From Afipia massiliensis (GTDB lineage Bacteria > Pseudomonadota > Alphaproteobacteria > Rhizobiales > Xanthobacteraceae): DNA of 64,000 nucleotides. Positions 20,138 through 53,897 of the stretch are shown here, in pieces. The stretch is from assembly GCF_014203115.1 (NCBI RefSeq), contig NZ_JACHIJ010000002.1, positions 744,001-808,000 on the forward strand, given 5' to 3'. Position 1 is the stretch's first letter. Each line of letters opens with the position of its first letter. Both the position numbers and the translations under genes were made by a program. The notes under the pieces are model-generated. The model was not told the origin of the DNA. It worked only from the letters and a program-made list of their open reading frames with translations, and searched no databases.

Positions 20138-20312
20138 GGCGGTCTCGCGGATCGCGGCGAGTATCAATTTTCAGGGAAGTTTGGAGCGGGTGAAGCGCCT
20201 TAAACTAATTCGCATGTAATTGAAGTAACAAGCGAATTTAGATCAACCCGATCGACGTGTATCCCACTGCGTATCCCAAAATGTAGCGCAGATATTTGGA
20301 TGCGGCGATACT

Positions 20313-22238: not shown

Positions 22239-22313
22239 ATGAGCTATAGGATCGGCTTGCTATAGCTCATAATTGTGCTAGATGTGAGCTATAGATGGAA
22301 TTTCTATAGCTCA
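22239..22313. promoter_or_regulatory. Double inverted repeat (TGAGCTATAG) over the fic promoter and start
   Basis: Two hairpin-like pairs: ATGAGCTATAG (22239-22249) with its complement at 22260-22270, and TGAGCTATAG (22285-22294) with its complement at 22304-22313. The last repeat runs into the ATG of the fic gene. Four copies of one box in 75 bases around a start codon are best explained as an operator. Confidence 0.75.
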
Positions 22314-23425
22314 TGACCTGGAACTGGGAAAATCCGAACTGGCCGAACTTTGTGTTCGATTCCAAGCCCCTGGAGGCTTTGGAACAACGCTTTCTGCTGC
22401 AATCCGGCCAGTTCATCGGCGCCTATAAGCATGTCAGCGCCGACGATCAGGAAAGCCTCAAGATCGAACTGATCAGTGAGGAAGCGGTCAAGACCTCGGA
22501 GATCGAGGGAGAGATCCTCAACCGGGATAGCGTGCAGTCGTCACTGCGCGCCCAGTTTGGGCTCGGTGCAGAGAAACCGGGCGTCAAACCCGCAGAACGC
22601 GGCATCTCAAAGATGATGGCAGGCTTATACCATAGCTTTGCTGTCCCTCTCACAGACCAGACCATGTTCGACTGGCATGCCTCCCTGCTCGCGGGGGATG
22701 GTGAGATCAAGGTCATCGGTGGCTATAGAACCCATCCGGAGCCGATGCAGGTGGTGTCCGGACCGATCCACAAACGAAAAGTCCATTTCGAGGCCCCTCC
22801 TTCCGCGCGTGTGCCGGAAGAGATGAAGCGCTTTGTTCAGTGGTTCAACGACACCAGCCCTGGGGGCGGAAAAGCCCTCCCCGCACTGACGCGAGCAGCA
22901 CTGACGCATCTCTATTTCGTGTGCATCCATCCATTCGAAGACGGCAACGGGCGGATTGCCCGGGCGCTCGCCGAAAAATCGCTGGCGCAGAGCCTTGGCC
23001 AGCCGAGCCTCATCGCGATCGCGTACACGATCGAACGCAAGCGCAACGACTACTATCAAGCATTGGAGGAAAATAACAAAGAGCTGACGATTGATGGCTG
23101 GATGAGTTATTTCGCCAATATGATCCTTGAGGCGCAGGACAACACGCTCAAGCGCGTGGAATTTTATGTCGCCAAGGCGAAATTCTACGAAAAATTCCGC
23201 GACCGGTTCAACGGACGCCAATCGAAGGTCATCGTGCGCATATTCCGGGAAGGCATCGACGGATTTAAGGGTGGCCTTAGCGCCGAAAATTACATCAATA
23301 TCAGCAAGACTTCGCGGGCAACCGCGACGCGCGATTTGCAGGATCTGGTCGAGAGCGGCGCGCTGACCAGAACAGGCGAATTGCGGCATACCCGATATTT
23401 CTTGAATCTTTCAGGTCATGGATGA
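22313..23425 (+). CDS. fic: Fic-family protein AMP-transferase with own inhibitory helix
   Basis: 370-residue Fic protein of the DUF4172 N-terminal type. The catalytic motif HPFEDGNGRIAR is complete with His206. Family knowledge: it transfers AMP from ATP to target hydroxyls. An N-terminal inhibitory motif T61-S-E-I-E65-G fits class II self-inhibition, and the flap VSGPIHKRKVHFEAPPS precedes the active site. The C-terminal 90 residues look like a winged helix, which could bind the repeats around its own start. It stands alone, with no separate antitoxin seen. Confidence 0.88.
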   Translation: MTWNWENPNWPNFVFDSKPLEALEQRFLLQSGQFIGAYKHVSADDQESLKIELISEEAVKTSEIEGEILNRDSVQSSLRAQFGLGAEKPGVKPAERGISKMMAGLYHSFAVPLTDQTMFDWHASLLAGDGEIKVIGGYRTHPEPMQVVSGPIHKRKVHFEAPPSARVPEEMKRFVQWFNDTSPGGGKALPALTRAALTHLYFVCIHPFEDGNGRIARALAEKSLAQSLGQPSLIAIAYTIERKRNDYYQALEENNKELTIDGWMSYFANMILEAQDNTLKRVEFYVAKAKFYEKFRDRFNGRQSKVIVRIFREGIDGFKGGLSAENYINISKTSRATATRDLQDLVESGALTRTGELRHTRYFLNLSGHG

Positions 23426-23532: not shown

Positions 23533-24828
23533 GTGCTTCTGCTTCACCTGTCGGATATTCACTTTCGCAAGGGCGAAGTTGGCACCGCCATGGACCCGAA
23601 CGCGCATTTGCGCAACGAGCTCTTGCTGGACGCGGTGGCGCAATGTCAAAAAATCGGAGCGACGCCGGAGGCGGTTCTGGTGTCCGGCGATATCGCCTTT
23701 GGCGGCGACGTCGACGAGTACGCCTATGCGTTGGATTGGCTCGACAAACTCTGCACACAGTGTGGAACAACGCTGTCTGCGGTGTTCACGATCCCCGGCA
23801 ATCATGACGTTGTTCGGAACATCGCAGGACGACGCCTGATCCAAGCACTACACCACGACATCAAGAGCGCGAGTGTGGCGGCGTTGGATGGAGTGCTTCG
23901 CGGCCTCCTCAGCGACCCGGAAACATTACGATTGTTATACGAGTCAATCGGACCGTATAACACCTTTGCAGGCCAATTCTTTTGCGACCTGTTACCACCC
24001 GAACGCACCATCGCGCATCGCGATCTTGTGTTAAACGATGGCTCTATTCTGCGCGTGTCAGGCTTTAATTCGGCATTCGTGTCAAGTGCCGCCGACAAGG
24101 CCGGGGATCTCTTCGTGGACCCTGCTTGCACACAATTGATCCGTGAGCGCGGCGTCGAGCACCTTGTCATGTGCCACCATCCTTATAACTGGTTGCGACA
24201 GGGAGACGTGTTGCGCGACTTTTTGAACGACGTCGCCAGGATCCACTTGTTCGGACATGAGCACACCAATCGCATCGAGATGGGACAAGACTGGGTCCGT
24301 ATCGCAGCCAGCGCGGCCCATCCCGACCGGACCGAACCAGGTTGGGAGCCGGGATATAATCTGATCGAGCTCAGCGTGGATGGTCAGGACGGTGAGCGCA
24401 AGCTGAACATTCGCTCGCACGTCAGGGTCTGGCAGCAAAGGCCTGGCGAATTTCGTGCGAAGACTCATCGCGGCTCTGACTTTTTTGGCCAGAGCATTCG
24501 GCTGGACGCCTGGACGTCGCCTCAACCGAGCCAAGCGCCCGCCGCGCCAACTGCGCCATCTGTCGCTGTCGCGGCAGATGAGCCGATCAAACCCGAAGCC
24601 GCAAGGAGCGATCCGATGGACACGTTGCGGGATATCAGCGTTCGATTTTTCAAACTCACGCTGAGTCAGAAATCGGCAATCGCCGGCAAGCTCAATCTTC
24701 TTGAAGAGGAAGATGCTAACCAGCCGGACTTTGAGCGGTTCAGGCGCGTGTTCGTGCGCGCGCGTGATCGCGGGCTTGTCGGCGACCTGGACCGTGAAAT
24801 CAAAGAGGTGGCCGCGAAGGGTCGCTGA
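23533..24828 (+). CDS. Calcineurin-like metallophosphoesterase with C-terminal helical adaptor
   Basis: 431 residues. All metallophosphoesterase blocks are present: D8-I-H10, GDIAFGGD, PGNHD, CHHP and GHEHTN, so a two-metal phosphodiesterase or nuclease is expected. After a Pro/Ala linker (about 335-350) comes an acidic and helical module of about 75 residues (FFKLTLSQKSAIAGKLNLL then FRRVFVRARDRGLVGDL), which looks like a small death-like or effector-associated adaptor. Start is GTG at 23533. First gene of a five-gene plus-strand cluster and its likely effector. Confidence 0.8.
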   Translation: MLLLHLSDIHFRKGEVGTAMDPNAHLRNELLLDAVAQCQKIGATPEAVLVSGDIAFGGDVDEYAYALDWLDKLCTQCGTTLSAVFTIPGNHDVVRNIAGRRLIQALHHDIKSASVAALDGVLRGLLSDPETLRLLYESIGPYNTFAGQFFCDLLPPERTIAHRDLVLNDGSILRVSGFNSAFVSSAADKAGDLFVDPACTQLIRERGVEHLVMCHHPYNWLRQGDVLRDFLNDVARIHLFGHEHTNRIEMGQDWVRIAASAAHPDRTEPGWEPGYNLIELSVDGQDGERKLNIRSHVRVWQQRPGEFRAKTHRGSDFFGQSIRLDAWTSPQPSQAPAAPTAPSVAVAADEPIKPEAARSDPMDTLRDISVRFFKLTLSQKSAIAGKLNLLEEEDANQPDFERFRRVFVRARDRGLVGDLDREIKEVAAKGR

Positions 24829-24855
24829 CATCGCTGGGAAAATGGGGGGAGCAAC

Positions 24856-25938
24856 GTGACTGAATTCAATTTTGCGGACAATTATCGGGCGGCAGGCCTG
24901 TCGGTCGGTCCTGAAATCCTCAAGACGCGGCAGGAGCCATTCGACAAACTGCGCAAGGCTATTGATCCGGCCACCGCGATCAACCTTGTGCGTCTGTATT
25001 TCGGCCTCCCCGTCCCCGGCGGCACGGATTGGTTTCGTGACGCCTTCGGCGAGACCGATACGTCCTTTTCCTTGATCGATAACGCGAGGGAGGCCGCTGT
25101 TCTGGCGGCCGGCTTGCTGGAGTCAGCAGCCAGCGACGGCAAGGTCTTTGCGGCGTTGGCCATACTGACGACCGCCGCGGGCGGCCTGCGCGAGCCAAAG
25201 GTTCGGCAGGACCTGATCGACGCGATGAAGTTCGTGCTTCGGGATAAGGCGGTTGCGGCCAGCAACCAGGCGCCAACAGACCCAAAAAAGATCAAGCTCC
25301 CTGCAGCGAGCAAGCTGCCGGCTGAGATTGACGCTCTTCTCCAGGCGCCCGAAATCGGGAAGGCCTCGAATCTCCTGAAGCAGGTGAGTGACGAGGCGAC
25401 GGCGAATACCAAGTCCCTCACCAATCAGGTGTTCGGGGTCACGGTTTCTCTCTCCGCGGAAGTGCAGAGGCTCCGCGAAGAGGTGGAGATGCTGTGGTGG
25501 CATGTTGGTGGATGGAGCCGATTGCTCGATAAGCCGTTCTCTGAGTTCACCCCCGGCGTCGCCGCCGTGCTCGCCGGCATCGACATGGCGGACATGAGCC
25601 GTTCGGCGACCGGTCCGGCAGCAACGGCCGCGATCTTGCAAAGAACGCTTGCCGCGACGAACAAAGACATGGCGTCGAAGATCGCCATTCGCGACGTCGT
25701 CGACGCCTTTCCTCAGGATCAACTCGATCTTTTGGATCTTGGGGAAGAACTCGGCAACGTCTCCGAAATATGCCCTGTTTTGAGCGCGTTCCCGAAGGCC
25801 AAAGAAATTGGCGCCGGTCAGGCCTGGCATGCGGCCTACGCCCGGGCAACCGGACTTGCGGCGGGATCTCAGTTTTCGCCGTTAGATATTGCCGTTCAAG
25901 TGTACCGTGAGCGGTTGCTCCTGCGCGATTTGGCATGA
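24856..25938 (+). CDS. GASH-like all-helical protein of the GTPase system
   Basis: 360-residue, predicted almost fully helical and without catalytic motifs. GTG at 24856 follows a GGGGGGAGC site. The position between an effector gene and paired GTPase genes matches the GTPase-associated helical (GASH) component described in predicted NTP-dependent conflict systems. The family assignment rests on context and general composition, not on a search. It may be a scaffold linking the phosphoesterase to the GTPases. Confidence 0.6.
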   Translation: MTEFNFADNYRAAGLSVGPEILKTRQEPFDKLRKAIDPATAINLVRLYFGLPVPGGTDWFRDAFGETDTSFSLIDNAREAAVLAAGLLESAASDGKVFAALAILTTAAGGLREPKVRQDLIDAMKFVLRDKAVAASNQAPTDPKKIKLPAASKLPAEIDALLQAPEIGKASNLLKQVSDEATANTKSLTNQVFGVTVSLSAEVQRLREEVEMLWWHVGGWSRLLDKPFSEFTPGVAAVLAGIDMADMSRSATGPAATAAILQRTLAATNKDMASKIAIRDVVDAFPQDQLDLLDLGEELGNVSEICPVLSAFPKAKEIGAGQAWHAAYARATGLAAGSQFSPLDIAVQVYRERLLLRDLA

Positions 25939-25947
25939 GTCACGACC

Positions 25948-27000
25948 ATGGCGGACAGCGTACAGCAAACAGCGTGTCGAAAAACCGACTGTCAGGTCGC
26001 AGCGACCGGAAAATGCGCCGACGGGCACGACCCGCTTGCGTCTTGCCCCAACTACGGCACTCACGCCGTTGAATCGAGCGAAGACTATGACGGCGAGCTC
26101 GATTCCACGGAGAGCGCCGCCATTACCGCCGAGCGCATCCAGCTTCCCGCGGGCGATGCCTTGACGCCCGATGACGTCGATCAATTTCTGCGTTGGCGGG
26201 ATGGCACCTTTGTTTGCATCATCGGCGACAGCCACAGCGGCAAGACCACACTCATCTCCGCTCTCTACGACAGGTTTCTGAGAGGCGATTTCGCAGGATC
26301 GGGCTTTGCGGGAAGTCGCAGCCTCGTGGCGCTGGAGCGCCGTTCGCACCATGCCCGCGTGGATTCCGGGCGGCTGAGCCCGGAGACCGCGCATACCTCG
26401 CTCCAGGATGGGCTGCGGTATTTCCACTTCGCCGTGGTCGCAAGCGGCGATCCCGGCAAACGCACAGACCTTCTGCTGTCGGATCGATCCGGGGAGACAT
26501 ACCGCAAGGCCCGAGACAATGCGGCCGAGGTCAAGAACCTGCCGGAAATCGCCCAGGCTAACAGGGTTGTCTTGTTGCTTGACGGAGGCCGTGTCGCAGA
26601 TCCGGTTGAACGTCACGGCGCTTTGCACTCCGTTCGTCAAACCTTGCGCGTTCTTCTCGATAACGGAGCCATCGATGACACCTCCATCGTGCAGATCGTC
26701 ACGACCAAGGTCGATCTGATATCGGCGAGTGGCGAGGCACAAACCTGCCGGGACAGCATTTCCGCATTTTGTCAGAGATTGACGGCAGACTTTGGCACCA
26801 GGCTACATTCCCTGTCCTTTCACGACATTGCCGCGCGTGATCCAACCGGTGGACTTGCGCCCGCTCACGGCCTCGAAGCCCTCCTCCAGGACTGGACGAC
26901 GCCGCAGTCCCGCAGCGCGCGGTACGTTCCGCGTCCGATCGTCTTGCAGAGCGAGTTCGATCGGCTGCTGGATCGGACACCGATGGAACTTCTGCCATGA
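25948..27000 (+). CDS. Double-GTPase 2-like protein with N-terminal Cys cluster
   Basis: 350 residues. The N-terminus has C10, C15, C23, H27 and C33, which may bind zinc. The GTPase core shows the P-loop G93-D-S-H-S-G-K99-T, a G3 motif D179-R-S-G182, and a G4-like T-T-K254-V-D256. Family knowledge: these are TRAFAC-type GTPases that occur in pairs in conflict systems. The next gene starts inside its stop (ATGA), so both GTPases are made together. Which GTPase corresponds to which named family is from memory. Confidence 0.72.
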   Translation: MADSVQQTACRKTDCQVAATGKCADGHDPLASCPNYGTHAVESSEDYDGELDSTESAAITAERIQLPAGDALTPDDVDQFLRWRDGTFVCIIGDSHSGKTTLISALYDRFLRGDFAGSGFAGSRSLVALERRSHHARVDSGRLSPETAHTSLQDGLRYFHFAVVASGDPGKRTDLLLSDRSGETYRKARDNAAEVKNLPEIAQANRVVLLLDGGRVADPVERHGALHSVRQTLRVLLDNGAIDDTSIVQIVTTKVDLISASGEAQTCRDSISAFCQRLTADFGTRLHSLSFHDIAARDPTGGLAPAHGLEALLQDWTTPQSRSARYVPRPIVLQSEFDRLLDRTPMELLP

Positions 27001-27851
27001 ATGACCAGTATCATTCGATTTTGGGCCTTCCAGGGTCGGGTAAGACCACTTATCTCGCAGCGCTGTGGCATGTGCTTGACGCCGGTGAGGTCCAGACCAA
27101 GCTCGTTCTCGACAAACTTGTTGGCGACAACGAGTACCTGAACAGAATCGTGGAGGCATGGCGCCGCTGCGAGGAAGTGCCACGGACCTCGATGCAGGAC
27201 GAAAAGCAAATCGTCATTCACAGCCATGTCCCCGCGAACGGGACAAAGGTCATCTTGCGGTTTCCAGATCTGTCAGGGGAGTCGTTCAAGCAGCAGTTCG
27301 CGACGCGAACCTGCACGCCGGACTATGTCCAGGGATTTTCCGACGCTGGCGGGATCCTCCTGTTTGTCAACGCAAACCGTCCAAACGACGGCCTGACTCT
27401 CGCGGACATACAGCCCGCCCTTGCGGATTCCGGCGAGCAAGGTGAGACGCCGATCGAGAAGGATTGGACTGCCGACGTCGTACCAGAGCAGGTGCGGTTG
27501 GTTGATTTGCTACAGTTCCTGCTCCGGCCACCTTTTGCGCGACGTCAGCGTCGTTTGGTAGTGGTCGTATCGGCCTGGGATGTCGTCATGGAGCCAAAGC
27601 CATCGCCGGAACAATGGCTGAAGCGCGAGCTTCCGTTGCTGCATCAGTTTCTTCTCAACAATCCCGAGAGCTTCGATGTGCGGGTCTACGGCGTTTCCGC
27701 CCAGGGCGGCGATGTGACGGGCGCACAACGCACCACGCTGTTACAGCAGACTCCAAGCCACCGAATCGAGTGCGTCGGTCCGGAAGCTGATGCCCACGAT
27801 ATTACGGCGCCACTGTTGTGGCTGACAGGAGATCAAGAAGTTGGCGGTTGA
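26997..27851 (+). CDS. Double-GTPase 1-like protein
   Basis: 284-residue GTPase, unlike its partner in sequence. P-loop G10-L-P-G-S-G-K16-T starts almost at the N-terminus, with G3 D91-L-S-G94-E and a degenerate G4 S192-A-W-D195 where N/TKxD is expected. It overlaps the upstream GTPase gene by four bases and the downstream GAP1-like gene by eleven. Loss of the canonical G4 Lys may relax guanine specificity. Probably forms a heterodimer with its partner; this is inferred. Confidence 0.72.
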   Translation: MNDQYHSILGLPGSGKTTYLAALWHVLDAGEVQTKLVLDKLVGDNEYLNRIVEAWRRCEEVPRTSMQDEKQIVIHSHVPANGTKVILRFPDLSGESFKQQFATRTCTPDYVQGFSDAGGILLFVNANRPNDGLTLADIQPALADSGEQGETPIEKDWTADVVPEQVRLVDLLQFLLRPPFARRQRRLVVVVSAWDVVMEPKPSPEQWLKRELPLLHQFLLNNPESFDVRVYGVSAQGGDVTGAQRTTLLQQTPSHRIECVGPEADAHDITAPLLWLTGDQEVGG

Positions 27852-29853
27852 GCCCCATACGTCGGTGAGGCTTCACCAATGCTTGTTCGGGTACGACAAC
27901 GGGCATCGTCTTCTGTCGACTTCGCATAAGTTACCGGATGATGCTGCAGCACTGTTGTTGCAGCATAGCGACCTGGTCCCCGGGCTGAGTGGAAGCCAGT
28001 TCGACAGCTATTGGACCGGGCTGCCGCTATCAGCCGCCAAGGTCTATGCGCTGATGCGGACCTGGCCGGCACCGGAAATGCCGCGCCCTGGATGCGTCTG
28101 GACCCATGTGATCTTGATAGCTCTTGCGGACATGGCCCGGTTTCCCGATCTGGGCGTTCTCAATTCTGTTTTGACTCGCCCCAGCGTCTCGCCGAACTAC
28201 TCATCCTATGCGGGGCCTCTCGCCATTGATCCAACAGAACCATCGGTCAGGACGCCTTTCTCAATCCAAAATGGCCTGAGCGTGGTCCGGGCGCTCTACG
28301 CGCCGGGCGCAAGTGGCGTGGTTATGGATCAGGGTGAACCGCTGGACGCGGCTGTTTTTGCCGCGTGGTCCCAGCAATGGCCGCGGCTGAGGCGAGCTTT
28401 TTCATTCCGAACCGCCGGACCTGCCAATGAACCATCGGCTGCGCGTTTTGATCTGCGGATCACGCGTGACGCCTTGGCTTCATCACCTCCCGCGCGGACC
28501 AGCAGCGCTGACGCGCGCGCGGACTGGGAAGACGCGGCTGTCGACGATCTGACCGCACTCGAGGTCACACCATATCGGCGGTTCTTGTGGCGCTACGGCT
28601 CGGACATGCGGCGTGGCCGCGAGAAGTATCGGTTTCTTGCCCAACTCTTCTTGACGACCCGGGTGCCGGCATTTGACGCAAGAACATTTGACCGAACACT
28701 TGGCCTCGTCGCCGAGGTGCTGCCGGAGCCTGACGACGGCAAGCTGCTCAAGGATGATTTTCTTTCCTGCGGCCGGAGCCCCTATTCTCTTCTCCCGCCA
28801 GCCAGCGCCGTCGACGCCCTTCGCTACGTCGTCGAGCATCCGGATTTGAAGGCGCTTCCTGCAGTGCCTGAGGCGACCTTTGCTGCGCTTGTGGATTCGT
28901 GGCCAGCCCGCGCCGCGGACGTGCTGGGTTTGGCCGAAAGCGCCGCCAACAGCGACGAAGCAACTTTTGAGAAGATACTCAAACCACTCGCAGCGACCGC
29001 GGAGCCGGCAAGCTTCATCGGCTTGTCTCGCGATCATTCCGTCGTTCGCAAGCGCGTGGTTATGGAGAATCCGGCCTTGCTCGATAGCGCGGATCTCGGG
29101 ACTCTTCCTGCAGACGAACTCCTCGACCTATTGACCGTGTTACCGGACAGCGAAGATTTGGCCAGCAAAGTCCTCGGTCGTCTTCTGTGTGTTGACAATG
29201 CCGATGTGGCCGCGACTTTTACCGATCGGTTTCTCTCAGTGACGGAGAACCAGGTTTTCGGGGCGTTGGTTGCCGAGCAGGCTCACTCGAAACCACTGCT
29301 GCCGCACGTTTGGCCGGACGCTGTACGGCAGCGCAGCCCGGACCTGGCGGCCCACATCCTGAATCGGGTTGCAACGACGACTGAGCTTGGCGTCCTCGTC
29401 GGATGGCTTGGATCGAACGTGACGTCGGGTTTGCGGGCCTCACCTGCCGTCTGGGCTGAAACACTGCGTCGGGCCCAAGACGACGTTCGTGGCCCGGCAC
29501 GGCAGCGACTACTGAGTTATCTCCTCGCATTGGCCTTGGCCCGACCGAGTCCAGGCTGCGAGCCTTTGTTCGAGGTGGCGTTCGAGAGCGTCCATGCCGA
29601 TATCTGGTCGTCCCGGCTACCTTATGATGCGTTCGATGCCCTGTCCCGCTTCCTGCCGAATCTATATTGGTGGGACCAATGGGACACGTGTCGCAGGCTT
29701 CGCCTCGCCGTGGCGCGAGCCTATGTGAGCGCCGACCTCGATCCGCGAAGTTTTCGACGCTTAACCAGCGACGCCGGTTTGTTTGACCGTCTGGTCGACG
29801 CTGTCCCGGACACAGGAGCTGGGCGCCGATATCTCAAACGCGTGTCTGGCTAA
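27841..29853 (+). CDS. GAP1-like GTPase-associated protein
   Basis: 670-residue soluble protein. The N-terminus (RLHQCLFGYDNGHRLLSTSHKL) has the Y-G-Y/D-x-G-H-R-L-L signature I associate with GTPase-associated protein 1 (GAP1) N-terminal domains. The middle and C-terminal parts are helical repeats with no catalytic motif. Start is TTG at 27841, overlapping the GTPase gene. In the predicted conflict systems it is the constant partner of the two GTPases, perhaps as a sensor or regulator. It is the last plus-strand gene of the cluster. Confidence 0.7.
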   Translation: MAVEPHTSVRLHQCLFGYDNGHRLLSTSHKLPDDAAALLLQHSDLVPGLSGSQFDSYWTGLPLSAAKVYALMRTWPAPEMPRPGCVWTHVILIALADMARFPDLGVLNSVLTRPSVSPNYSSYAGPLAIDPTEPSVRTPFSIQNGLSVVRALYAPGASGVVMDQGEPLDAAVFAAWSQQWPRLRRAFSFRTAGPANEPSAARFDLRITRDALASSPPARTSSADARADWEDAAVDDLTALEVTPYRRFLWRYGSDMRRGREKYRFLAQLFLTTRVPAFDARTFDRTLGLVAEVLPEPDDGKLLKDDFLSCGRSPYSLLPPASAVDALRYVVEHPDLKALPAVPEATFAALVDSWPARAADVLGLAESAANSDEATFEKILKPLAATAEPASFIGLSRDHSVVRKRVVMENPALLDSADLGTLPADELLDLLTVLPDSEDLASKVLGRLLCVDNADVAATFTDRFLSVTENQVFGALVAEQAHSKPLLPHVWPDAVRQRSPDLAAHILNRVATTTELGVLVGWLGSNVTSGLRASPAVWAETLRRAQDDVRGPARQRLLSYLLALALARPSPGCEPLFEVAFESVHADIWSSRLPYDAFDALSRFLPNLYWWDQWDTCRRLRLAVARAYVSADLDPRSFRRLTSDAGLFDRLVDAVPDTGAGRRYLKRVSG

Positions 29854-32867: not shown

Positions 32868-32924
32868 GACCGTTCCCACATCGCGCTGTCGATGACGTCG
32901 TTTGTCGATCACAATCAATACCCG

Positions 32925-32937: not shown

Positions 32938-32967
32938 ATCGGGTTGGAAGGTGCCGGGCGCGAGTAC

Positions 32968-34830: not shown

Positions 34831-35070
34831 TTCTCCTCAAACTTCGCCGTGTCTTCCACGCATCACGCATCCCGTCATCGTATGCCGTTGCGCGTTGTCC
34901 CCTCAATCCACTGCGCACGCACGCAGCGATTTCAGCCATTTCGCCGTTGCTAGGTCATTCTACGCCAGACTACGACGGCCACGACTGGCTTGTTGCTCCG
35001 CTCCCGATGATGCCTTTTGTATTCATCCCCGGCGCTCGGCGAATTCTCGCCGCGCCTCTTGGGGGACGCG

Positions 35071-36060
35071 ATGGCTGGGACCGGACACAACAATGACTCC
35101 GCCTCGCGCGGGGCGCGGATGCTGCGCACCGCGCTTGGCCCAGCCATCGCGACTTATCTGCAGGACGCCTCCGTCGTCGAGGTGATGCTCAATCCCGACG
35201 GCCGGCTCTGGATCGATCGCCTGAAGGGCGGCCTCGAGGACACGGGTGAGCGGCTTTCCCCTGCGGATGGCGAACGCATCGTGCGCCTTGTCGCGCACCA
35301 TGTCGGCGTCGAAGTCCATCCCGCCTCCCCGCGCGTGTCCGCTGAACTGCCGGAGACCGGTGAGCGTTTCGAGGGATTGATCCCGCCGGTCGTCGCCGCA
35401 CCGACCTTCGCCATTCGCAAGCCGGCGGTCGCGGTGTTCACCCTCGACGATTATGTCGCGGCCGGCATCATGCGGCCGAAGCAGGCTGAGCTGCTGCGGC
35501 TCGCGGTCGAGAAGCGAAAGAACGTCCTGGTCGCCGGCGGCACCTCGACGGGCAAGACCACGTTGGTCAATGCGCTGCTCGCTGAAGTCGCCAAGACGTC
35601 CGATCGCGTGGTGCTGATCGAGGACACCCGCGAGCTGCAATGCGCCGCGCCCAATCTTGTCGCGCTGCGCACCAAGGACGGCGTCGCCACGCTCTCCGAT
35701 CTGGTGCGTTCGTCATTGCGCCTCCGGCCGGATCGCATCCCCGTCGGCGAGGTGCGCGGCGCTGAGGCGCTTGAACTTCTGAAAGCCTGGGGAACGGGAC
35801 ACCCCGGGGGCATCGGCACGATTCACGCAGGAAGCGCGATCGGCGCGCTGCGCCGGCTCGAACAACTGATCCAGGAAGCGGTGATCACCGTGCCTCGCGC
35901 GCTGATCGCCGAGACCATCAATCTCATCGTCGTGCTCGCCGGCCGCGGCTCCAAACGCCGCGTTGCTGAACTGGCGGCCGTGCGCGAACTCGCGCCGAAC
36001 GGCGACTACGTCCTCCTCTCCAGCACCCACGAAGCCAATCCCGAAAGTGACCGCACATGA
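35071..36060 (+). CDS. trbB: Conjugal transfer ATPase TrbB
   Basis: 329-residue VirB11-type secretion ATPase that powers assembly of the mating channel. Walker A is in [14 protein letters not shown], followed by the Asp box ([12 protein letters not shown]) and the His box region [15 protein letters not shown] at 35071 is chosen since GGGGGAC lies just before it; an upstream TTG at 35017 is possible. First gene of a tightly packed trbBCDEJKLFGI operon; its stop overlaps trbC (ATGA). Confidence 0.92.
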
Positions 36061-36386
36061 TGTCCATTCGCCCCAAGTCTCGTCATTTGCTCGCGCTCCT
36101 CCCGGCGATCCTTGTGTTCGCGGCGACCACGCTGCCTGCGCACGCCGCCGGCTCCAACATGCCGTGGGAGCAGCCGCTCAACCAGATCCTGCAATCGGTC
36201 GAAGGCCCGGTCGCGAAGATCATCGCGGTGATCATCATCGTCACCACGGGTCTCACACTGGCGTTTGGCGACACCTCGGGCGGCTTCCGGCGGCTGATCC
36301 AAATCGTGTTCGGGCTCTCGATCGCCTTCGCGGCCTCAAGCTTCTTCTTGTCGTTTTTCTCGTTCGGCGGCGGGGCGGTGATCTGA
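36057..36386 (+). CDS. trbC: TrbC pilin subunit
   Basis: 109-residue VirB2-like pilin precursor. A long signal sequence ends near PAHAAGSNMPWEQP, followed by two hydrophobic helices (IIAVIIIVTTGLTLAFG and IVFGLSIAFAASSFF). Family knowledge: such pilins are processed and assembled into the conjugative pilus. It overlaps trbB by four bases and trbD by one. Confidence 0.9.
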   Translation: MMSIRPKSRHLLALLPAILVFAATTLPAHAAGSNMPWEQPLNQILQSVEGPVAKIIAVIIIVTTGLTLAFGDTSGGFRRLIQIVFGLSIAFAASSFFLSFFSFGGGAVI

Positions 36387-36658
36387 TGGCCGAGCCCAAT
36401 GAACCCATCGCCGGTTTCACCGCGCCCGTGCGTCGCTCCCTCAGCGATCCGATCCTGCTCGGCGGCGCGCCCCGCACGGTAGCGATCGCCAACGGCACGC
36501 TGGCCGCCGCGCTCGGTCTCGGCCTGCGCTTATGGATTCCGGGGCTGCTGCTCTGGGCGATCGGTCACGCGGCCGCGGTCTGGGCCGCCAAGCGCGACGC
36601 GCAATTCGTCGACGTGGTGCGCCGTCACCTGCGCTACCCCGCGCATTTTGGCTCGTGA
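36386..36658 (+). CDS. trbD: TrbD (VirB3-like)
   Basis: 90-residue inner-membrane protein with a hydrophobic pair near residues 30-65, the VirB3-type component of the channel. ATG at 36386 overlaps the trbC stop (TGATG). It is followed at once by trbE, with which VirB3-type proteins are functionally linked or sometimes fused. Confidence 0.88.
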   Translation: MAEPNEPIAGFTAPVRRSLSDPILLGGAPRTVAIANGTLAAALGLGLRLWIPGLLLWAIGHAAAVWAAKRDAQFVDVVRRHLRYPAHFGS

Positions 36659-36667
36659 GGTGCTGTG

Positions 36668-39103
36668 ATGATGAACCTCGCTGAATATCGCAAACGCCCT
36701 GCTCTCCTCGCGGACTTCCTGCCCTGGGCTGCATTGATTGCGCCCGGCGTCGTCCTCAACAAGGACGGCAGCTTCCAGCGCACCGCGCGGTTTCGCGGGC
36801 CGGATCTGGACAGCGCAACACCCGCCGAACTCGTCGGCACCACGGCGCGGCTGAACAACGCACTTCGTCGGCTCGGCTCCGGCTGGGCGATCTTCGTCGA
36901 GGCGCAGCGCAATCCCGCCAACCGCTATCCCGACAGCCGCTTTCCCGATGCGGTTTCGGCGCTTGTCGATATGGAACGCCGTGCGCAATTCGAGGAACAG
37001 GGATCGCATTTCGAGAGCGCGTATTTCCTGACGCTGTGCTGGCTGCCGCCGGCGGAGGACGCCGCCCGCGCCGAGGCCTGGCTCTACGAGGGCCGTGCCC
37101 GCACCGGCGTCGACGGCCATGAAGTGCTGCGCGGCTTCGTCGATCGCACCTCTCGCGTGTTGCAACTGATCGAAGGCTTCGTGCCCGACGCGGCGTGGCT
37201 CGATGACGCGGAAACGCTGACCTATCTGCACGCCTGCATCTCGACCAAACGTCATCGCGTCCGTGTCCCCGAGATCCCGATGCAGATCGATGCGCTGCTG
37301 GTGGATGAACCCATGACCGGCGGACTTGAGCCGAGATTGGGGGCGCAGCATCTGCGCACGCTCAGTGTGATCGGGTTTCCGACCGCGACCTATCCGGGCG
37401 TGCTCGATGAACTCAATCAGTTGGCCTTTCCGTATCGCTGGTCGACGCGCGCCATCATGCTCGACAAGACGGATGCCACCAGGCTGCTCACCAAGATCCG
37501 CCGGCAATGGTTCGCCAAACGAAAGAGCGTCGCGGCGATCCTGAAGGAGGTGATGACCAACGAGGCCTCGACGCTGCTGGATACGGACGCCGCCAACAAG
37601 GCCGCCGATGCCGATGCTGCCTTGCAGGAACTCGGCAGCGACATGATCGGCCAGGCCTATGTCACCGCCACCATCACGGTGTCGGACACCGACCCCGCCA
37701 CAGCCGATGAGAAACTCCGTCTTGTCGAGAAGGTGATCCAGGGCCGCGACTTCACCTGCATGGTCGAGACGGTGAATGCGATCGAGGCCTGGCTTGGCTC
37801 CCTGCCCGGCCATGTCTACGCCAACGTCCGGCAGCCGCCGGTCTCCACCCTCAATCTCGCCCACATGATTCCGCTGTCCGCGGTGTGGGCGGGGCCGGAA
37901 CGGGACGAGCATCTCGGTTCACCCCCGCTGTTCTTCGCCAAGACCGAAGGCGCGACCCCGTTCCGGTTCTCTCTCCATGTCGGCGATGTCGGCCACACCC
38001 TGATCGTCGGACCGACCGGCGCCGGCAAGTCGGTACTGCTGGCGCTGATGGCGCTGCAGTTCCGCCGTTACGAACGCAACCAGATCTTCGCGTTCGATTT
38101 CGGCGGCTCGATCCGCGCCGCAGCGATCGGGATGGGCGGCGACTGGCACGATCTCGGCGGCGCGCTGTCGGACGACAGCGCCGCCTCCGTCACCCTGCAG
38201 CCGCTGGCGGCCATCGATGATGCGGCCGAACGTGGCTGGGCGGCGGAATGGATCGCGGCGATCCTCGCGCGGGAGGGCATCACCGTCACGCCTGAAGCCA
38301 AGGAACATCTGTGGACGGCGCTGACCTCGCTGGCCTCCGCACCGCCAAGCGAGCGGACCCTCACGGGTCTGTCGGTGCTGCTGCAATCCAGTGCGCTGAA
38401 GCAGGCGCTGCGTCCCTATTGTCTCGGCGGTCCGTTCGGGCGGCTGCTCGATGCCGAAGCCGAGCATCTCGGCGATGCTCCGGTGCAGGCCTTCGAGACC
38501 GAAGGGCTGATCGGCAGCGCGGCTGCATCGGCCACGCTCTCCTATCTGTTCCACCGCATTGAAGGCCGGCTCGACGGCTCGCCGACGCTTCTGATTATCG
38601 ACGAAGGCTGGCTAGCGCTCGACGACATCCGCTTCGCCCAGCAATTGCGTGAATGGCTGAAGACCCTGCGCAAGAAAAATGCCTCGGTGGTGTTCGCTAC
38701 CCAGTCGCTCGCCGACATCGAGGATAGCGCGATTGCCGCCGCCATCATCGAGAGCTGCCCGACCCGGCTGTTCCTGCCGAACGAGCGCGCAATCGAGCCA
38801 CAGATCACGGCGGTCTATCGCCGCTTCGGGCTCAACGACCGCCAGATCGAGATCGTCAGCCGGGCCACGCCGAAACGCGACTACTACTGCCAATCCCGCC
38901 GCGGCAACCGGCTGTTTGAATTGGGCCTCGGCGACGCCGCGCTCGCCTTCGTCGCGGCCTCCTCCAAGACCGACCAGGTCACCATTGCCGAACTTGTCGC
39001 CGAACACGGACGCGACGGCTTCGCCGCGGCCTGGCTGCGGCGCAAGGGCAACGCCTGGGCGGCCGATCTCCTTCCCACCTTCACCCCGGAGCCATCCCCA
39101 TGA
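36668..39103 (+). CDS. trbE: Conjugal transfer ATPase TrbE
   Basis: 811-residue VirB4-type ATPase, the largest component of the trb channel. Walker A is GPTGAGKS near residue 450 and Walker B is in TLLIIDEGWLALDD, followed by the VVFATQSLADIE segment. Two ATGs (36668, 36671) and a GTG (36665) are possible starts; GAGGTG upstream serves the first ATG. The stop overlaps trbJ (ATGA). Confidence 0.92.
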   Translation: MMNLAEYRKRPALLADFLPWAALIAPGVVLNKDGSFQRTARFRGPDLDSATPAELVGTTARLNNALRRLGSGWAIFVEAQRNPANRYPDSRFPDAVSALVDMERRAQFEEQGSHFESAYFLTLCWLPPAEDAARAEAWLYEGRARTGVDGHEVLRGFVDRTSRVLQLIEGFVPDAAWLDDAETLTYLHACISTKRHRVRVPEIPMQIDALLVDEPMTGGLEPRLGAQHLRTLSVIGFPTATYPGVLDELNQLAFPYRWSTRAIMLDKTDATRLLTKIRRQWFAKRKSVAAILKEVMTNEASTLLDTDAANKAADADAALQELGSDMIGQAYVTATITVSDTDPATADEKLRLVEKVIQGRDFTCMVETVNAIEAWLGSLPGHVYANVRQPPVSTLNLAHMIPLSAVWAGPERDEHLGSPPLFFAKTEGATPFRFSLHVGDVGHTLIVGPTGAGKSVLLALMALQFRRYERNQIFAFDFGGSIRAAAIGMGGDWHDLGGALSDDSAASVTLQPLAAIDDAAERGWAAEWIAAILAREGITVTPEAKEHLWTALTSLASAPPSERTLTGLSVLLQSSALKQALRPYCLGGPFGRLLDAEAEHLGDAPVQAFETEGLIGSAAASATLSYLFHRIEGRLDGSPTLLIIDEGWLALDDIRFAQQLREWLKTLRKKNASVVFATQSLADIEDSAIAAAIIESCPTRLFLPNERAIEPQITAVYRRFGLNDRQIEIVSRATPKRDYYCQSRRGNRLFELGLGDAALAFVAASSKTDQVTIAELVAEHGRDGFAAAWLRRKGNAWAADLLPTFTPEPSP

Positions 39104-39828
39104 CCCGCATCCGTTCGCTTGCCGCAATCGCCGCTCTCGCCGCCTCCCTCTTCGCGGCCACGCCATCGTCAGCCCAGATCGCGGTGTTCGATCCGTCGAA
39201 CTACAGCCAGAACCTGATGACCGCGGCGAATACGCTCAGGCAGATCGACAATCAGCTCACGGCGATCCAGAACCAGACCCAGATGCTGCTCAACCAGGCG
39301 CGGCATCTGACCAGCTTGCCGACGTCGCTGCTCAACGACATCGATCGCACCTTCACCCAGACCCAGAACCTGCTCCGGCAGGTCGACAAGATCGCCTATG
39401 ACGTGCAGGCGATCGAGCAGACGTTTCAGAAGTATCAGGGCTTTGGCGCATCGCAGAGCGATCAGCAGTTGATCAACGGCGCGCGTGACCGCTGGCAGAC
39501 ATCGGTGTCGGCGTTTCAGCATTCGATGAGCATCGGCGCCGCCACGGTGAATAACCTTCCCGCGACGCAAGCCCACACCGACACCTTGGTCGGTGCCAGC
39601 CAGTCGGCGGTCGGCGTGCTGCAGGTCAGCCAGGCCGGCAATCAACTGCTCGCGGTGCAGGCGCGGCAGCTCGCCGATCTCACCGCGCTGATGGCGGCGC
39701 AAGGCCGGGCGCAGTCGGTCGAACAAGCCCGGCAAGCAGCAGGCGAGGACCAGGCGCGCGAACAGGTCCGCCGCTTCCTGACTGGCGGCCGGGGCTATCA
39801 GCCGCAATCCGTCCAGATGTTTCATTGA
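39100..39828 (+). CDS. trbJ: TrbJ (VirB5-like)
   Basis: 242-residue periplasmic protein with a signal peptide ending at SSAQIAVFD and a long Gln-rich helical region (NQLTAIQNQTQMLLNQARHL). Family knowledge: a minor pilus or assembly factor exposed at the pilus tip. Starts in the trbE stop. Confidence 0.88.
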   Translation: MTRIRSLAAIAALAASLFAATPSSAQIAVFDPSNYSQNLMTAANTLRQIDNQLTAIQNQTQMLLNQARHLTSLPTSLLNDIDRTFTQTQNLLRQVDKIAYDVQAIEQTFQKYQGFGASQSDQQLINGARDRWQTSVSAFQHSMSIGAATVNNLPATQAHTDTLVGASQSAVGVLQVSQAGNQLLAVQARQLADLTALMAAQGRAQSVEQARQAAGEDQAREQVRRFLTGGRGYQPQSVQMFH

Positions 39829-39840
39829 AGGGTAACGCCA

Positions 39841-40077
39841 ATGCGCACCCGCGTGGCCATTACGATCCTTCTCGCTGCCTGTGTTGCGGGCTGCAGCGTG
39901 CCGCTGCGCTGCGGGCCGGAGGCCGCGATTGGCCATGCCACCGAGCCTAGCGCACTCGATGGCCGGCTCGTGCGTTGCAGCGCGCTCGACCCGAAGGTCG
40001 CCGCCGACGACGCCGACTGCAAAAGCGCCTGGGCGGAAGCCCGCAAGCGCATCCTGCCAACACCATCGGGGAAATAA
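39841..40077 (+). CDS. trbK: TrbK-like entry-exclusion lipoprotein
   Basis: 78-residue lipoprotein with a lipobox VAGC near residue 18 and further Cys pairs. Position between trbJ and trbL and the size match TrbK or TrbK-alt, which prevents redundant DNA entry into cells already carrying the element. Sequence conservation of this family is weak, so the name rests mainly on position. Confidence 0.75.
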   Translation: MRTRVAITILLAACVAGCSVPLRCGPEAAIGHATEPSALDGRLVRCSALDPKVAADDADCKSAWAEARKRILPTPSGK

Positions 40078-40079
40078 CC

Positions 40080-41198
40080 ATGAACAACACCGGCGTGATC
40101 GATCATTTCCTCGACGTCTTCACCCGCTACATCGATTCCGGCTTCGGCCTGCTCGGCAGCGATGTCCAGTATCTCAGCGCCACCCTGATTGCGATCGACA
40201 TCACGCTGGCCGGCCTGTTCTGGGCGATGGCCGCGGACGAAGACGTCATCGCACGGCTGATCAAGAAGACGCTCTATATCGGCTTCTTCGCCTTCATCAT
40301 CGGCAACTTCAATTCGCTGTGCCGCGTGGTGTTCGAGAGCTTCTCCCAATTGGGGCTCAAGGCGTCGGGCTCGGCGCTGTCGTCGGCGGATTTTCTGCGG
40401 CCGGGGAAACTGGCGCAAGTCGGCGTCGACGCCGGCAAGCCGCTGCTCGACGCCGCCTCCGGCCTGATGGGCTACGTCTCCTTCTTCACCAACTTCGTCC
40501 AGATCTTCGTGCTGCTGGTGGCGTTTCTGGTCGTGGTCATCGCCTTCTTCATCCTGGCGGTGCAGCTCTTTATGACGCTGATCGAATTCAAACTGACGAC
40601 GCTTGCGGGCTTCGTGCTGATCCCGTTCGCCCTGTTCAACAAGACCTCGTTCCTCGCCGAAAAAGTGCTCGGCAATGTCGTCGCCTCCGGCGTCAAGGTC
40701 CTGGTGCTCGCCGTTATCGTCGGTATCGGCACGTCTCTGTTCAGCGAATTCACTCAAGGATTCGGCGGCAACCAGCCGACCATCGAGGACGCGCTCGCGA
40801 TCATGCTGGCGGCGCTGGCGCTGTTCGGGCTCGGCATCTTCGCGCCCTCGATCGCCGCGGGGCTTGTGTCGGGCGCGCCGCAGCTCGGCGCGGGCGCCGC
40901 GGTCGGGACTGCTGTGGCCGCAGGCGGACTTGGCGTCGCCGGCGCAATGGCGGCAAGCGGCGCCGTGGGCGTTGCCGGCGGTGCAATCGGTGCCAGCACA
41001 CGCGGCGTGGCATCAGCCGCAGGACTATCGCCGGCCTCAACCGCGTCGACTTCAAGCGGCCCACCTGCCTGGGCGCAGCGCCAGGCCGGCAGCCAGACCA
41101 TTAAGCATGGCGCCTCCGCCGCCATTCATGCCGTGCGCTCCGGCGACCACGGCGGCGGCTCGAATTCCGTTCCTCTCAATCAGGATGACCGCGCATGA
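40080..41198 (+). CDS. trbL: TrbL (VirB6-like) channel protein
   Basis: 372-residue inner-membrane protein: five or six hydrophobic helices in the first 270 residues, then an Ala/Gly/Ser-rich tail. VirB6-type proteins form the inner-membrane part of the channel. ATG at 40080 lies two bases after the trbK stop; the longer open frame upstream is a shadow of trbK. Overlaps trbF by four bases. Confidence 0.9.
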   Translation: MNNTGVIDHFLDVFTRYIDSGFGLLGSDVQYLSATLIAIDITLAGLFWAMAADEDVIARLIKKTLYIGFFAFIIGNFNSLCRVVFESFSQLGLKASGSALSSADFLRPGKLAQVGVDAGKPLLDAASGLMGYVSFFTNFVQIFVLLVAFLVVVIAFFILAVQLFMTLIEFKLTTLAGFVLIPFALFNKTSFLAEKVLGNVVASGVKVLVLAVIVGIGTSLFSEFTQGFGGNQPTIEDALAIMLAALALFGLGIFAPSIAAGLVSGAPQLGAGAAVGTAVAAGGLGVAGAMAASGAVGVAGGAIGASTRGVASAAGLSPASTASTSSGPPAWAQRQAGSQTIKHGASAAIHAVRSGDHGGGSNSVPLNQDDRA

Positions 41199-41881
41199 CT
41201 CTGTTCCGCCGACCGAGTGTCCGTTACGGCAAGACGCCCGCGCCCGAGACGCCGTATCAGAAGGCAGCCCAGGTCTGGGACGAGCGCATCGGCTCGGCGC
41301 GAGTCCAGGCCCGCAACTGGCGGCTGATCGCCTTCGGCAATCTCGCGCTCGCGGCCGGTCTCGCGGGTGGTCTGGTCTGGCATGCGACACGCGGCACCGT
41401 CGTGCCCTGGGTGGTGCAGGTCGATCAGTTCGGCCAGGCGCAGGCGGTGGCACCAGCGGTCGCCGACTACAAGCCGACCGATGCACAGATCGCCTGGCAC
41501 CTGGCGCGTTTCATCGAGCAGGTGCGCGCGATCCCGGTCGATCCCGTCATCGTGCGGCAGAACTGGCTGTCGGCCTACGACTTCGTCACCGATCGCGGCG
41601 CGCTGGCGCTCAACGACTATGCGCGCACCAACGATCCCTTCGCCAAGGTCGGCAAGAGCCAGGTCGCGGTCGATGTCTCCAGCGTGATCCGGGCTTCATC
41701 GGACTCGTTCCGGATCGCCTGGACTGAGCGCCGCTACGAGAACGGCTCTCTCGCCGCGACCGAACGCTGGACCGCCATTCTCACCATCGTCATCGAGACC
41801 CCGCGCGACACGGAAAAGCTGCGCCGCAACCCGCTCGGGGTCTTCATTCACGCCCTCAACTGGTCAAAGGAGCTTGGCTGA
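41195..41881 (+). CDS. trbF: TrbF (VirB8-like)
   Basis: 228-residue bitopic inner-membrane protein: a cytosolic N-terminus, one membrane helix at about residues 48-70, and a periplasmic NTF2-like domain. It nucleates the channel in related systems. Overlaps trbL and trbG by a few bases. Confidence 0.9.
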   Translation: MTLFRRPSVRYGKTPAPETPYQKAAQVWDERIGSARVQARNWRLIAFGNLALAAGLAGGLVWHATRGTVVPWVVQVDQFGQAQAVAPAVADYKPTDAQIAWHLARFIEQVRAIPVDPVIVRQNWLSAYDFVTDRGALALNDYARTNDPFAKVGKSQVAVDVSSVIRASSDSFRIAWTERRYENGSLAATERWTAILTIVIETPRDTEKLRRNPLGVFIHALNWSKELG

Positions 41882-42867
41882 TGCGACCCCGCACCCTTCT
41901 TCACATTATTATATGCACGTTGCCGGCCGCGGGTTGCGCCAACACCTGGAAGCCGCCGCAGATCGGCTATGACGATCTCGAGCCGGCGGTGCTGCAGGCC
42001 GACCCGCCGAAGCCTGTCCAGGTGGTCGAACTACCGAAACCCCTGCCCCTTCCCGGCCAGCTCAAGCCGTTGCCGGGAAAGACCACGGCGAAACCCGAGC
42101 CGAAGGATCCGAAGGAGCGGGTCGCCAAGGCCAATGACGCCGCGCGGGTGCAGCCGACACGTCACGGCTATCTCAACGCCGTGCAGGTCTATCCCTTTGT
42201 CGAGGGCGCGCTCTATCAGGTCTATACCGCGCCGGGACAAGTCACCGACATCGCGTTGCAGGATGGCGAGCAACTGGTGGGATCGGGTCCGGTCGCCGCG
42301 GGCGACACGGTGCGCTGGGTGATCGGCGACACTGAAAGCGGGACAGGTGCGACCAAACGGATTCACATCCTGGCAAAGCCGACGCGGCCGGATCTCACCA
42401 CCAATCTCGTCATCAACACCGACCGGCGAACCTATCTGATGGAGTTGCGCTCCACGGAGAAAACCTACATGGCCTCGGTGTCGTGGCAATATCCACAAGA
42501 CCAGTTGATCGCGCTGCGCCGGCAGAACGAACAGGCGGATGCTGCGGCGCCGATCGACAGCGGCATTGACTTGGGCAAGCTGCGCTTCCGCTACGCGATC
42601 GAGGGCGACGCGCCGCCGTGGCGGCCGACGCAGGTGTTCGATGACGGCGCCAAAGTCTATATCGAATTCGCTCGGGGCATCAGCCAGGGCGAGATGCCGC
42701 CGCTGTTCGTGATCGGCAGCGATGGCGCGACCGAACTCGTCAACTACCGCACGCGGCAGAACTACTACATCGTCGACCGGCTGTTCGCGGCGGCCGAACT
42801 TCGCCTCGGCGGCGACAACCAGCAGAAAGTCCGCATCATTCGCACCGACGGATGGAGGTTGTGGTGA
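41881..42867 (+). CDS. trbG: TrbG (VirB9-like) lipoprotein
   Basis: 328-residue outer-membrane-complex protein. The N-terminus ends in a lipobox AAGC, so it may be lipidated, which is found in some TrbG proteins. The C-terminal beta domain (FRYAIEGDAPPWRPTQVFDDG) is the conserved CagX/VirB9 segment. The trbI start overlaps its stop (GTGA). Confidence 0.9.
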   Translation: MRPRTLLHIIICTLPAAGCANTWKPPQIGYDDLEPAVLQADPPKPVQVVELPKPLPLPGQLKPLPGKTTAKPEPKDPKERVAKANDAARVQPTRHGYLNAVQVYPFVEGALYQVYTAPGQVTDIALQDGEQLVGSGPVAAGDTVRWVIGDTESGTGATKRIHILAKPTRPDLTTNLVINTDRRTYLMELRSTEKTYMASVSWQYPQDQLIALRRQNEQADAAAPIDSGIDLGKLRFRYAIEGDAPPWRPTQVFDDGAKVYIEFARGISQGEMPPLFVIGSDGATELVNYRTRQNYYIVDRLFAAAELRLGGDNQQKVRIIRTDGWRLW

Positions 42868-44048
42868 GCGATCAGCACTCCCATCCCGACGATGCGCTGG
42901 CCGCGCAGTTGCGGCTGCATCCGGAGCCGCCTCGCGTGACGCGACTTTCCAGAAAAGTACTGGCCGCTCTCGGGAGCGTGGTCGGCATCGCCGTGCTGGG
43001 CGCGATGATCTACGCGCTGCAATCGCGCGGTATGCGAACCGGCAACGGCACTGAGCTCTACTCAACCGACCACAAGACCACCGCGGACGAACTTGCGAGG
43101 CTGCCGAAAGACTACACCGGCCTGCCGCAGGAAGCGCCGCCGCCGCGGACAGTCCCGCAACTCGGACCTCCCCTTCCCGGCGATCTTGGCCGGCCCATTC
43201 TGGGCGCCCAGGGCGGTGCGACCGGGCTCGATCCAGGTGAACAGCGGATCGTGCAGGAGAATGAGGCGGCCCGCGTCAGCCGCGTGTTCGCCTCGACCAA
43301 CGTGCGCCAGGCCATCGCGTCCGCCGCCACGACGCCCGCGGCATCGCCGGCGAACGCGCTTCCGCCTGACACCAAACCGCCGCTCGATCCGGATTCGTTG
43401 CAGAACATGCAGGACCGCAAGCTCGCCTTCGCCAATGCCGTGCCCGACAAGCGCACGGTGAGCCCAGACCGGCTTGAGCGTCCCGCATCGCGCTACATCG
43501 TCCAGGCCGGTGTGGTGATCCCGGCGGCGCTCATCACTGGCATCCGCTCGGATCTGCCGGGCGAGATCACCGCGCAGGTCACGGAGAACGTCTATGACAG
43601 TCCGTCCGGCAAATATCTCCTGGTGCCGCAGGGTGCGCGGCTGATCGGGCAATACGACAGCCAGATCTCCTTCGGGCAGTCGCGTGTGCTCCTGGTGTGG
43701 AATCGCATTATCATGCCGAATGGCCGATCGATCGTGCTGGAGCGGCAATCGGTCGCGGACCGCGCGGGTTATGCGGGTCTCGAAGATGGCGTCGATTACC
43801 ATTGGGGCAACCTGCTCGGGGCGGCTGCGATCTCCACGCTTCTTGGCATCGGCAGCGAACTGGTTCTCAGCGGCGACAACTCGCTGGTGCGAGCGCTCAG
43901 AACCGGCAGCCAGGACACCATCAACCAGAGCGGCCAGACCCTGGTGCGGCGGCAACTCAACGTGCAGCCGACGCTGACCATCCGGCCGGGATTTCCGGTG
44001 CGCGTCATCGTCAACCGCGACCTGGTCCTTGCGCCTTATAAAGTCTGA
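42864..44048 (+). CDS. trbI: TrbI (VirB10-like)
   Basis: 394-residue energy-coupling protein bridging both membranes: one helix at about residues 35-55, a Pro-rich linker, and the conserved C-terminal barrel domain (GVVIPAALITGIRSDLPGEI). GTG at 42864 is preferred to ATG at 42852 because GGAGG lies six bases before it and GTGA overlaps the trbG stop. Confidence 0.9.
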   Translation: MSDQHSHPDDALAAQLRLHPEPPRVTRLSRKVLAALGSVVGIAVLGAMIYALQSRGMRTGNGTELYSTDHKTTADELARLPKDYTGLPQEAPPPRTVPQLGPPLPGDLGRPILGAQGGATGLDPGEQRIVQENEAARVSRVFASTNVRQAIASAATTPAASPANALPPDTKPPLDPDSLQNMQDRKLAFANAVPDKRTVSPDRLERPASRYIVQAGVVIPAALITGIRSDLPGEITAQVTENVYDSPSGKYLLVPQGARLIGQYDSQISFGQSRVLLVWNRIIMPNGRSIVLERQSVADRAGYAGLEDGVDYHWGNLLGAAAISTLLGIGSELVLSGDNSLVRALRTGSQDTINQSGQTLVRRQLNVQPTLTIRPGFPVRVIVNRDLVLAPYKV

Positions 44049-52585: not shown

Positions 52586-52598
52586 ACGGGCTCGCGGA

Positions 52599-53872: not shown

Positions 53873-53897
53873 TACTTCGCGAGACAAGCCTTGCGGC

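Follow-up and report, generated by a model that had tools for sequence, protein, structure and literature searches.

The 64,000-nucleotide stretch of the Afipia massiliensis genome analysed here (contig NZ_JACHIJ010000002.1, positions 744,001 to 808,000; hereafter the window) carries five closely packed genes on its forward strand (23533-29853), whose products combine a phosphoesterase with two unlike GTPases and raise the question of what such a combination does. In gene order these products are a metallophosphoesterase with a GAAD domain, a GASH protein, DO-GTPase2, DO-GTPase1 and a GAP1-N1 protein, and the Pfam matches of all five exceed the curated cut-offs in hmmscan searches (Table 1). 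At a probability of roughly 60%, we regard them as a double-GTPase conflict system of the GAP1-N1 type, carried on an integrative and conjugative element (ICE), probably directed against phages or mobile elements and operating through the switch mechanism outlined below. A preliminary description, made from the sequence alone, had placed five genes on one strand at these coordinates, which is borne out, but had them overlap at the last three junctions; overlaps are found only at the last two, namely 4 bp between DO-GTPase2 and DO-GTPase1 (26997-27000) and 11 bp between DO-GTPase1 and GAP1 (27841-27851), with gaps of 27 bp between the phosphoesterase and GASH genes and of 9 bp between the GASH and DO-GTPase2 genes.

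Double-GTPase systems were predicted in 2020 (Kaur, Burroughs, Iyer and Aravind, eLife; PMC7159879), and the available text of that study describes the GAP1-N1 systems as comprising GASH and a pair of DO-GTPases, of which one bears a zinc ribbon; their most frequent effector is a calcineurin-superfamily phosphoesterase, and GAAD is an adaptor linked to the effector. It further predicts that the calcineurin-type effector is a nucleotidyl phosphodiesterase, and reports that nucleotide-related effectors in such systems sometimes co-occur with SLATT pores. The window operon has GAP1-N1, GASH, two DO-GTPases with a glutamate after DxxG (PF19993 and PF19975 matches), a calcineurin-type effector with GAAD in the same chain, and a GAP1 gene downstream of both GTPase genes, with no essential difference in gene content from the system as described there. 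In such systems a variable effector is joined by GAP1 fusion, EAD1 or GAAD, and in the window it is joined by GAAD. As for the GAP1-M and GAP1-C parts, hmmscan reports only GAP1-N1 at E<=0.1, and the rest of the protein is predicted to be helical. Since the operon matches this description in GASH, the two GTPases, the effector and the adaptor, it represents a known type of system and not a new kind, and its classification as a GAP1-N1 GTPase-centric conflict system is secure. The preliminary description had named DO-GTPase1, DO-GTPase2, GASH and GAP1 and had likened the gene order to that of predicted conflict systems; that classification was right, because each of the named families is matched and the five genes co-occur elsewhere. 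It had mentioned neither the GAAD domain nor a motif of four cysteines in DO-GTPase2.

Inspection of the alignments shows that both GTPases retain their characteristic motifs. The window DO-GTPase1 has GKT and DxxGE, and its G4 motif is a non-canonical SAWD; across the aligned rows, GK[ST] is present in 24/25, DxxGE in 25/25, and WD, as opposed to the canonical NKxD, in 25/25. The window DO-GTPase2 has GKT, DxxGE and TKxD, and among its 26 rows GK[ST] and GE are found in all, the usual aspartate before GE in 21 and [ST]KxD in 21. The N-terminal four-cysteine motif of this protein (C10, C15, C23 and C33; 21/26 rows overall, the window included) was recognised by eye as zinc-ribbon-like, with no profile match reported. 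The AlphaFold2 model of GASH is all-helical (pLDDT 89.6), and structure searches with it gave no PDB match at E<=0.001 and no convincing relative.

The arrangement was compared across 25 other loci, all selected by a GAP1 or DO-GTPase match: plasmid GAP1 matches (19 taken from 27 records), one phage record matching DO-GTPase1, whole-genome matches and a second copy in the same genome. Near-duplicates are present, the GAP1 proteins of these loci and the window forming 23 sequences at 90% identity; given the mode of selection, it is the recurrence of the remaining genes that is informative. In 21/25 loci all five components share one strand and the gene order of the window, so that the arrangement is not a matter of chance, and the conservation of the neighbourhood, to which the preliminary description had looked for confirmation, is upheld. 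Among these 21, a locus of Acetobacter (L021) has the phosphoesterase swapped for an alpha/beta-hydrolase while keeping GAAD; in an Afipia sp. metagenome-assembled genome (L008, 6536-7832) the phosphoesterase gene is frameshifted into two open reading frames, the other four genes being intact; and on plasmid pVSAL840 of Aliivibrio salmonicida (L025, 3575-16062) the GASH gene is split by an IS30 element. The last of these systems adjoins the RADAR genes rdrA and rdrB.

The other four loci are EAD1-type variants with caspase or PNP effectors and, together with L021, supply the alternative effector arrangements. One is a second GAP1-N1 system in the A. massiliensis genome itself (L004, 6672-13349; contig C3, about 838671-845348), of the EAD1/caspase type, with genes for GASH, two DO-GTPases, GAP1-EAD1 and caspase-EAD1. 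It shares with the window operon the core of GASH, DO-GTPase2, DO-GTPase1 and GAP1-N1 and differs from it in its effector, a caspase encoded downstream and joined via EAD1 domains; none of the ten open reading frames scanned at this locus has GAAD. A LuxI-type autoinducer synthase gene lies near this second system. Of the remainder, L023 is assigned to the EAD1 type by record annotation and two phmmer matches, L034 has a PNP-EAD1 effector, and the locus of a Leptospira phage (KF114878.1; L016, 6775-13357) has GASH, two DO-GTPase genes, GAP1-EAD1 and a PNP-family gene without an EAD1 match. A plasmid search with the EAD1-type GAP1 matched nine records, five of which were inspected; on an Enterobacter kobei plasmid (L088, 6001-9550), the annotation divides GAP1 and its EAD1 portion between two genes, and a caspase gene comes next.

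Turning to the effector, the metal-site motifs DxH, GD, GNHD, HH and GHxH are intact in the window phosphoesterase, and the full set of five is present in 21 of the 22 effector rows, only the replaced effector of L021 lacking it; ten of these 22 effectors were scanned for GAAD, and every one has it. The pattern DxH...GD...GNHD...H...GHxH is the metal-site signature of class III cyclic-nucleotide phosphodiesterase-like enzymes, and it is present in the window effector. A calcineurin-like signature is also common to Mre11/SbcD-type nucleases, and at the level of sequence the signature suits both nucleases and cyclic-nucleotide phosphodiesterases. Sequence searches detected only two relatives with solved structures, both 274-aa 'phosphohydrolase' sequences, which we take to be GpdQ, a class III phosphodiesterase. 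Further, NCBIfam models for DS8_antiphage (NF053861; residues 5-283, 98 bits, 3.2e-28) and DS9_1_antiphage (60 bits) match the protein, which thus has a metallophosphatase domain of the DS-8 type. It is not DS-8 itself: that identity was rejected on the score (98 against 790 bits) and on the C-terminus, which is GAAD and not NACHT. In the DefensePredictor study (PMC13092281), as far as its accessible text goes, DS-8 joins a metallophosphatase to NACHT in one protein, DS-9 consists of two genes, and mutation of the metallophosphatase catalytic residues in either abolished defence; its authors interpret both, the nearest relatives of the window effector validated against phage, as nucleotide-degrading and liken DS-8 to the cGAMP-degrading enzyme SMPDL3A. 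The term 'GTPase' is absent from the main text of that paper. Beyond the homologous domain, the window operon would resemble DS-8 in coupling a metallophosphatase to an NTPase switch; however, DS-8 has its NACHT in the same chain and DS-9 has a HAD phosphatase gene, whereas the window operon has a GTPase pair in trans, with GAAD as the proposed link. A nucleotide is the favoured substrate of the effector.

The AlphaFold2 model of GAP1 (pLDDT 90.4) bears on how the switch might be set. Its N-domain elements (E9-18, E22-27, H33-43, E57-63, E68-76, E86-94, H95-100, H104-110) are predicted to follow the order β-β-α-β-β-β-α-α, which defines the longin domain (PMC3570213). R82, invariant in 31/31 and in 50/50 sequences, lies in the β4-β5 loop of the model, the loop that bears the predicted arginine finger of Avl9-type DENN GTPase-activating proteins (GAPs; PMC12803157). 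Additionally, three of 50 VIA-align rows match the N-domain, the longin match with Z <8, and all three point to TagF or to GTPase regulators of the longin/DENN class. On the basis of this model, GAP1-N1 could be a GTPase-activating module of the longin type in bacteria, using R82 as its arginine finger and acting on the GTPase pair in an immune switch. We hold this proposal tentatively, at somewhat less than even odds; it would make GAP1-N1 a bacterial counterpart of the eukaryotic longin GAPs acting on paired Rag GTPases and ARF, with a DS-8-like phosphoesterase as the output here and a caspase or PNP in the sister systems. The words 'longin' and 'roadblock' have no occurrence in the text of PMC7159879, in which this reading of GAP1-N1 is not found, and no paper joining longin, bacterial phage defence and GTPases was found in the open-licence literature.

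With the longin/DENN GAPs FLCN-FNIP (Rag GAP), C9orf72-SMCR8 (ARF GAP) and Avl9 (Arf GAP), as presented in the accessible parts of PMC8213707 and PMC12803157, GAP1 would share the predicted β-β-α-β-β-β-α-α domain and the association with GTPases, and with the Avl9 type also the invariant loop arginine. It differs from them in being bacterial, in having an alpha-solenoid in place of the DENN domain and in a GAP role that is only predicted, with a moderate structural score and no sequence-profile similarity shown. MglA-MglB likewise consists of a bacterial GTPase under a regulator of the longin-related (roadblock) fold class; however, MglB is a small roadblock protein of cell polarity and is set beside GAP1 by description only (PMC8336837, in part).

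In the mechanism that we propose, the DO-GTPase1 and DO-GTPase2 pair would serve as the switch, as their constant co-occurrence suggests. GAP1 might dock on the pair via its N-terminal longin-like domain, with R82 stimulating GTP hydrolysis, a step suggested by predicted fold, loop position and invariance. The helical solenoid of GAP1, with GASH, would either sense the trigger or scaffold the complex. The trigger would then alter the state of the GTPases, such that the phosphoesterase held by GAAD could be released or activated, and the enzyme would hydrolyse a nucleotide or nucleotide signal, bringing growth or phage replication to a stop. The preliminary description had the GTPases sense the invader, which is conjectural; sensing or scaffolding appears to us more likely to fall to the alpha-solenoid and GASH. 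The families, the intact catalytic motifs, the conservation of the operon, the effector swap with the adaptor retained and the mobile context are directly supported, and a role in defence is plausible.

Several points weigh against this reading. The open-licence literature searched yielded no experiment on a DO-GTPase system; the DS8 and DS9_1 scores lie below the whole-protein (equivalog) cut-offs of 790 and 420 bits; and the frameshift in the genus-mate L008/G019 is either an assembly error in the metagenome-assembled genome or a broken effector. As regards GAP1, Foldseek alone gave no match at E<=0.001, GAP1-N1 and TagF showed no relationship when their profiles were compared (probability 0.1-0.2), Z values below 8 may according to the tool signify a mere common arrangement, and the invariant D44 could pair structurally with R82. 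Such a pair, if present, would account for the conservation of R82 without catalysis, and it is quite possible, if on balance doubtful, that within the same conflict system the likeness to longin is convergent, R82, D44 and G84 being structural residues (a hairpin salt bridge), and GAP1 a sensor-adaptor passing the state of the GTPases to the effector, as the available text of PMC7159879 proposed. The exact longin order of the predicted elements, the regulators picked out by VIA-align and the position of the invariant arginine in the finger-bearing loop of the Avl9-type proteins (PMC12803157, in part) argue against it. The effector, too, can be viewed differently: the preliminary description made it a nuclease degrading invader or host DNA or RNA, and besides the signature discussed above, PADLOC matches it as 'Effector, Endonuclease' (4.2e-08; also PDC-S60, 6.2e-15). 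We think this unlikely, considering the two 'phosphohydrolase' sequences as its only solved-structure relatives, the comparison of DS-8 with SMPDL3A (PMC13092281) and the phosphodiesterase prediction in PMC7159879, both as given in the available texts.

The operon could also benefit the mobile element instead of the host, if the system were to exclude rival plasmids or ICEs or to stabilise the element, phages being irrelevant. Its location in an ICE is in keeping with this, as is its occurrence elsewhere mostly on conjugative plasmids (of the 27 plasmid records matched by GAP1, 21 are typed conjugative, five mobilizable and one non-mobilizable), and so is the sporadic presence of GAP1-N1 in 2/61 relatives, 2/289 genomes of the class and 4/398 of the phylum, its own genome counted each time. 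However, defence systems are commonly cargo of ICEs and plasmids as well, one relative (L025) adjoins antiviral genes, and the phosphoesterase domain has been validated against phage in another architecture (PMC13092281, in part), which leaves this alternative rather improbable. It is more improbable still that the effector is a negative regulator removing the cyclic-nucleotide signal of another system, the operon then tuning immunity instead of executing it: a phosphodiesterase would agree with the motif signature, and the occasional SLATT pores beside nucleotide-related effectors (PMC7159879, in the text available) would fit, but no nucleotide cyclase or SLATT protein is present among the window proteins scanned, which cover part of the open reading frames.

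The operon begins 3.3 kb inside the putative ICE and, together with the RES, Fic, TcmP and DUF5131 genes, lies between attL and the trb-type conjugation genes. A genus-mate (G013) aligns with the window up to 20195 and has there an intact tRNA-Gly(UCC) and no element. At the right end, outside the window, an intact tRNA-Gly (contig C2:871208-871281) is followed by tRNA-Tyr as in G013; an element of about 107 kb is delimited by this gene, attL and the empty site. A phage-type integrase gene stands beside the right-end tRNA-Gly (L081, 3722-5107), and an ArdC gene lies within the element, which these sequence features mark as a putative ICE. From 20182 onwards, as far as the compared stretch extends, the window matches the contig of the Afipia sp. 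metagenome-assembled genome (JANQAK010000004.1, L008) at 99.98%.

Table 1. Position of the operon, its domains and its surroundings in the window
Feature	Coordinates	Strand	Evidence
Effector, calcineurin-like metallophosphoesterase	23533..24828	+	Pfam PF00149 Metallophos 3.1e-11, about residues 1-245
GAAD adaptor, C-terminal part of effector	residues 365-425, nt 24625-24807	+	Pfam PF19976 7.1e-17
GASH, all-helical protein	24856..25938	+	Pfam PF19994 7.6e-41
DO-GTPase2, N-terminal four-Cys motif at nt 25975-26046	25948..27000	+	Pfam PF19993 7.6e-46
DO-GTPase1	26997..27851	+	Pfam PF19975 1.8e-76
GAP1: N-terminal GAP1-N1, then helical repeat region about residues 228-669	27841..29853	+	Pfam PF20012 2.3e-30
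Predicted longin-like domain of GAP1, residues 9-132; R82 codon 28084-28086, β4-β5 loop	27865..28236	+	
attL, left end of putative ICE, in the last bases of tRNA-Gly(UCC)	20182..20195		empty site in genus-mate G013
Putative ICE, ~107 kb	window 20182 to beyond 64000; contig C2 764182-871222		
RES-domain gene, between attL and operon	20313-20927		
Fic protein, SoFic type, upstream neighbour	22313..23425	+	PF02661 3.2e-18; PADLOC SoFic 1.2e-44
TcmP, downstream neighbour, outside system	30783-32048	-	TIGR04474 1e-61
DUF5131, downstream neighbour, outside system	32088-33101	-	PF07505 5.5e-101
trb-type conjugation genes of putative ICE	35017..44048	+	T2SSE, CagE_TrbE_VirB/TraG, VirB8, CagX, TrbI domains

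The neighbouring Fic, RES and TcmP genes, cited in the preliminary description in favour of a defence role, do resemble defence or toxin-antitoxin genes in their Pfam, PADLOC and NCBIfam matches, and the TcmP/DUF5131 pair corresponds to the PADLOC candidates PDC-M30/M41; the Fic gene is regarded here as a neighbour of the GTPase system. Elsewhere in the window, an S1/P1-type nuclease gene (33811-34830) is complete in just two of 29 genus genomes, its own and G019 (G018 gives a partial, weak match), and curli-type genes (CsgG, CsgF and curlin-repeat proteins; 48699-56882, - strand) lie inside the putative ICE.

The locus makes a good test bed for systems of this type, because it is complete, has intact motifs, resides in a mobile element and is accompanied in the same genome by a second system with another effector and adaptor. 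The points likely to be of most value to specialists are the specific idea that GAP1-N1 acts as a GAP and the relation of the effector to DS-8 and DS-9. In particular, the predicted likeness of GAP1 to a domain by which animals and fungi turn GTPases off suggests a concrete way of working. If GAP1 is indeed a longin-type GAP, a single point mutation (R82A) would probe how the switch is set, and a eukaryotic regulator of nutrient sensing and membrane traffic would gain a counterpart in bacterial immunity.

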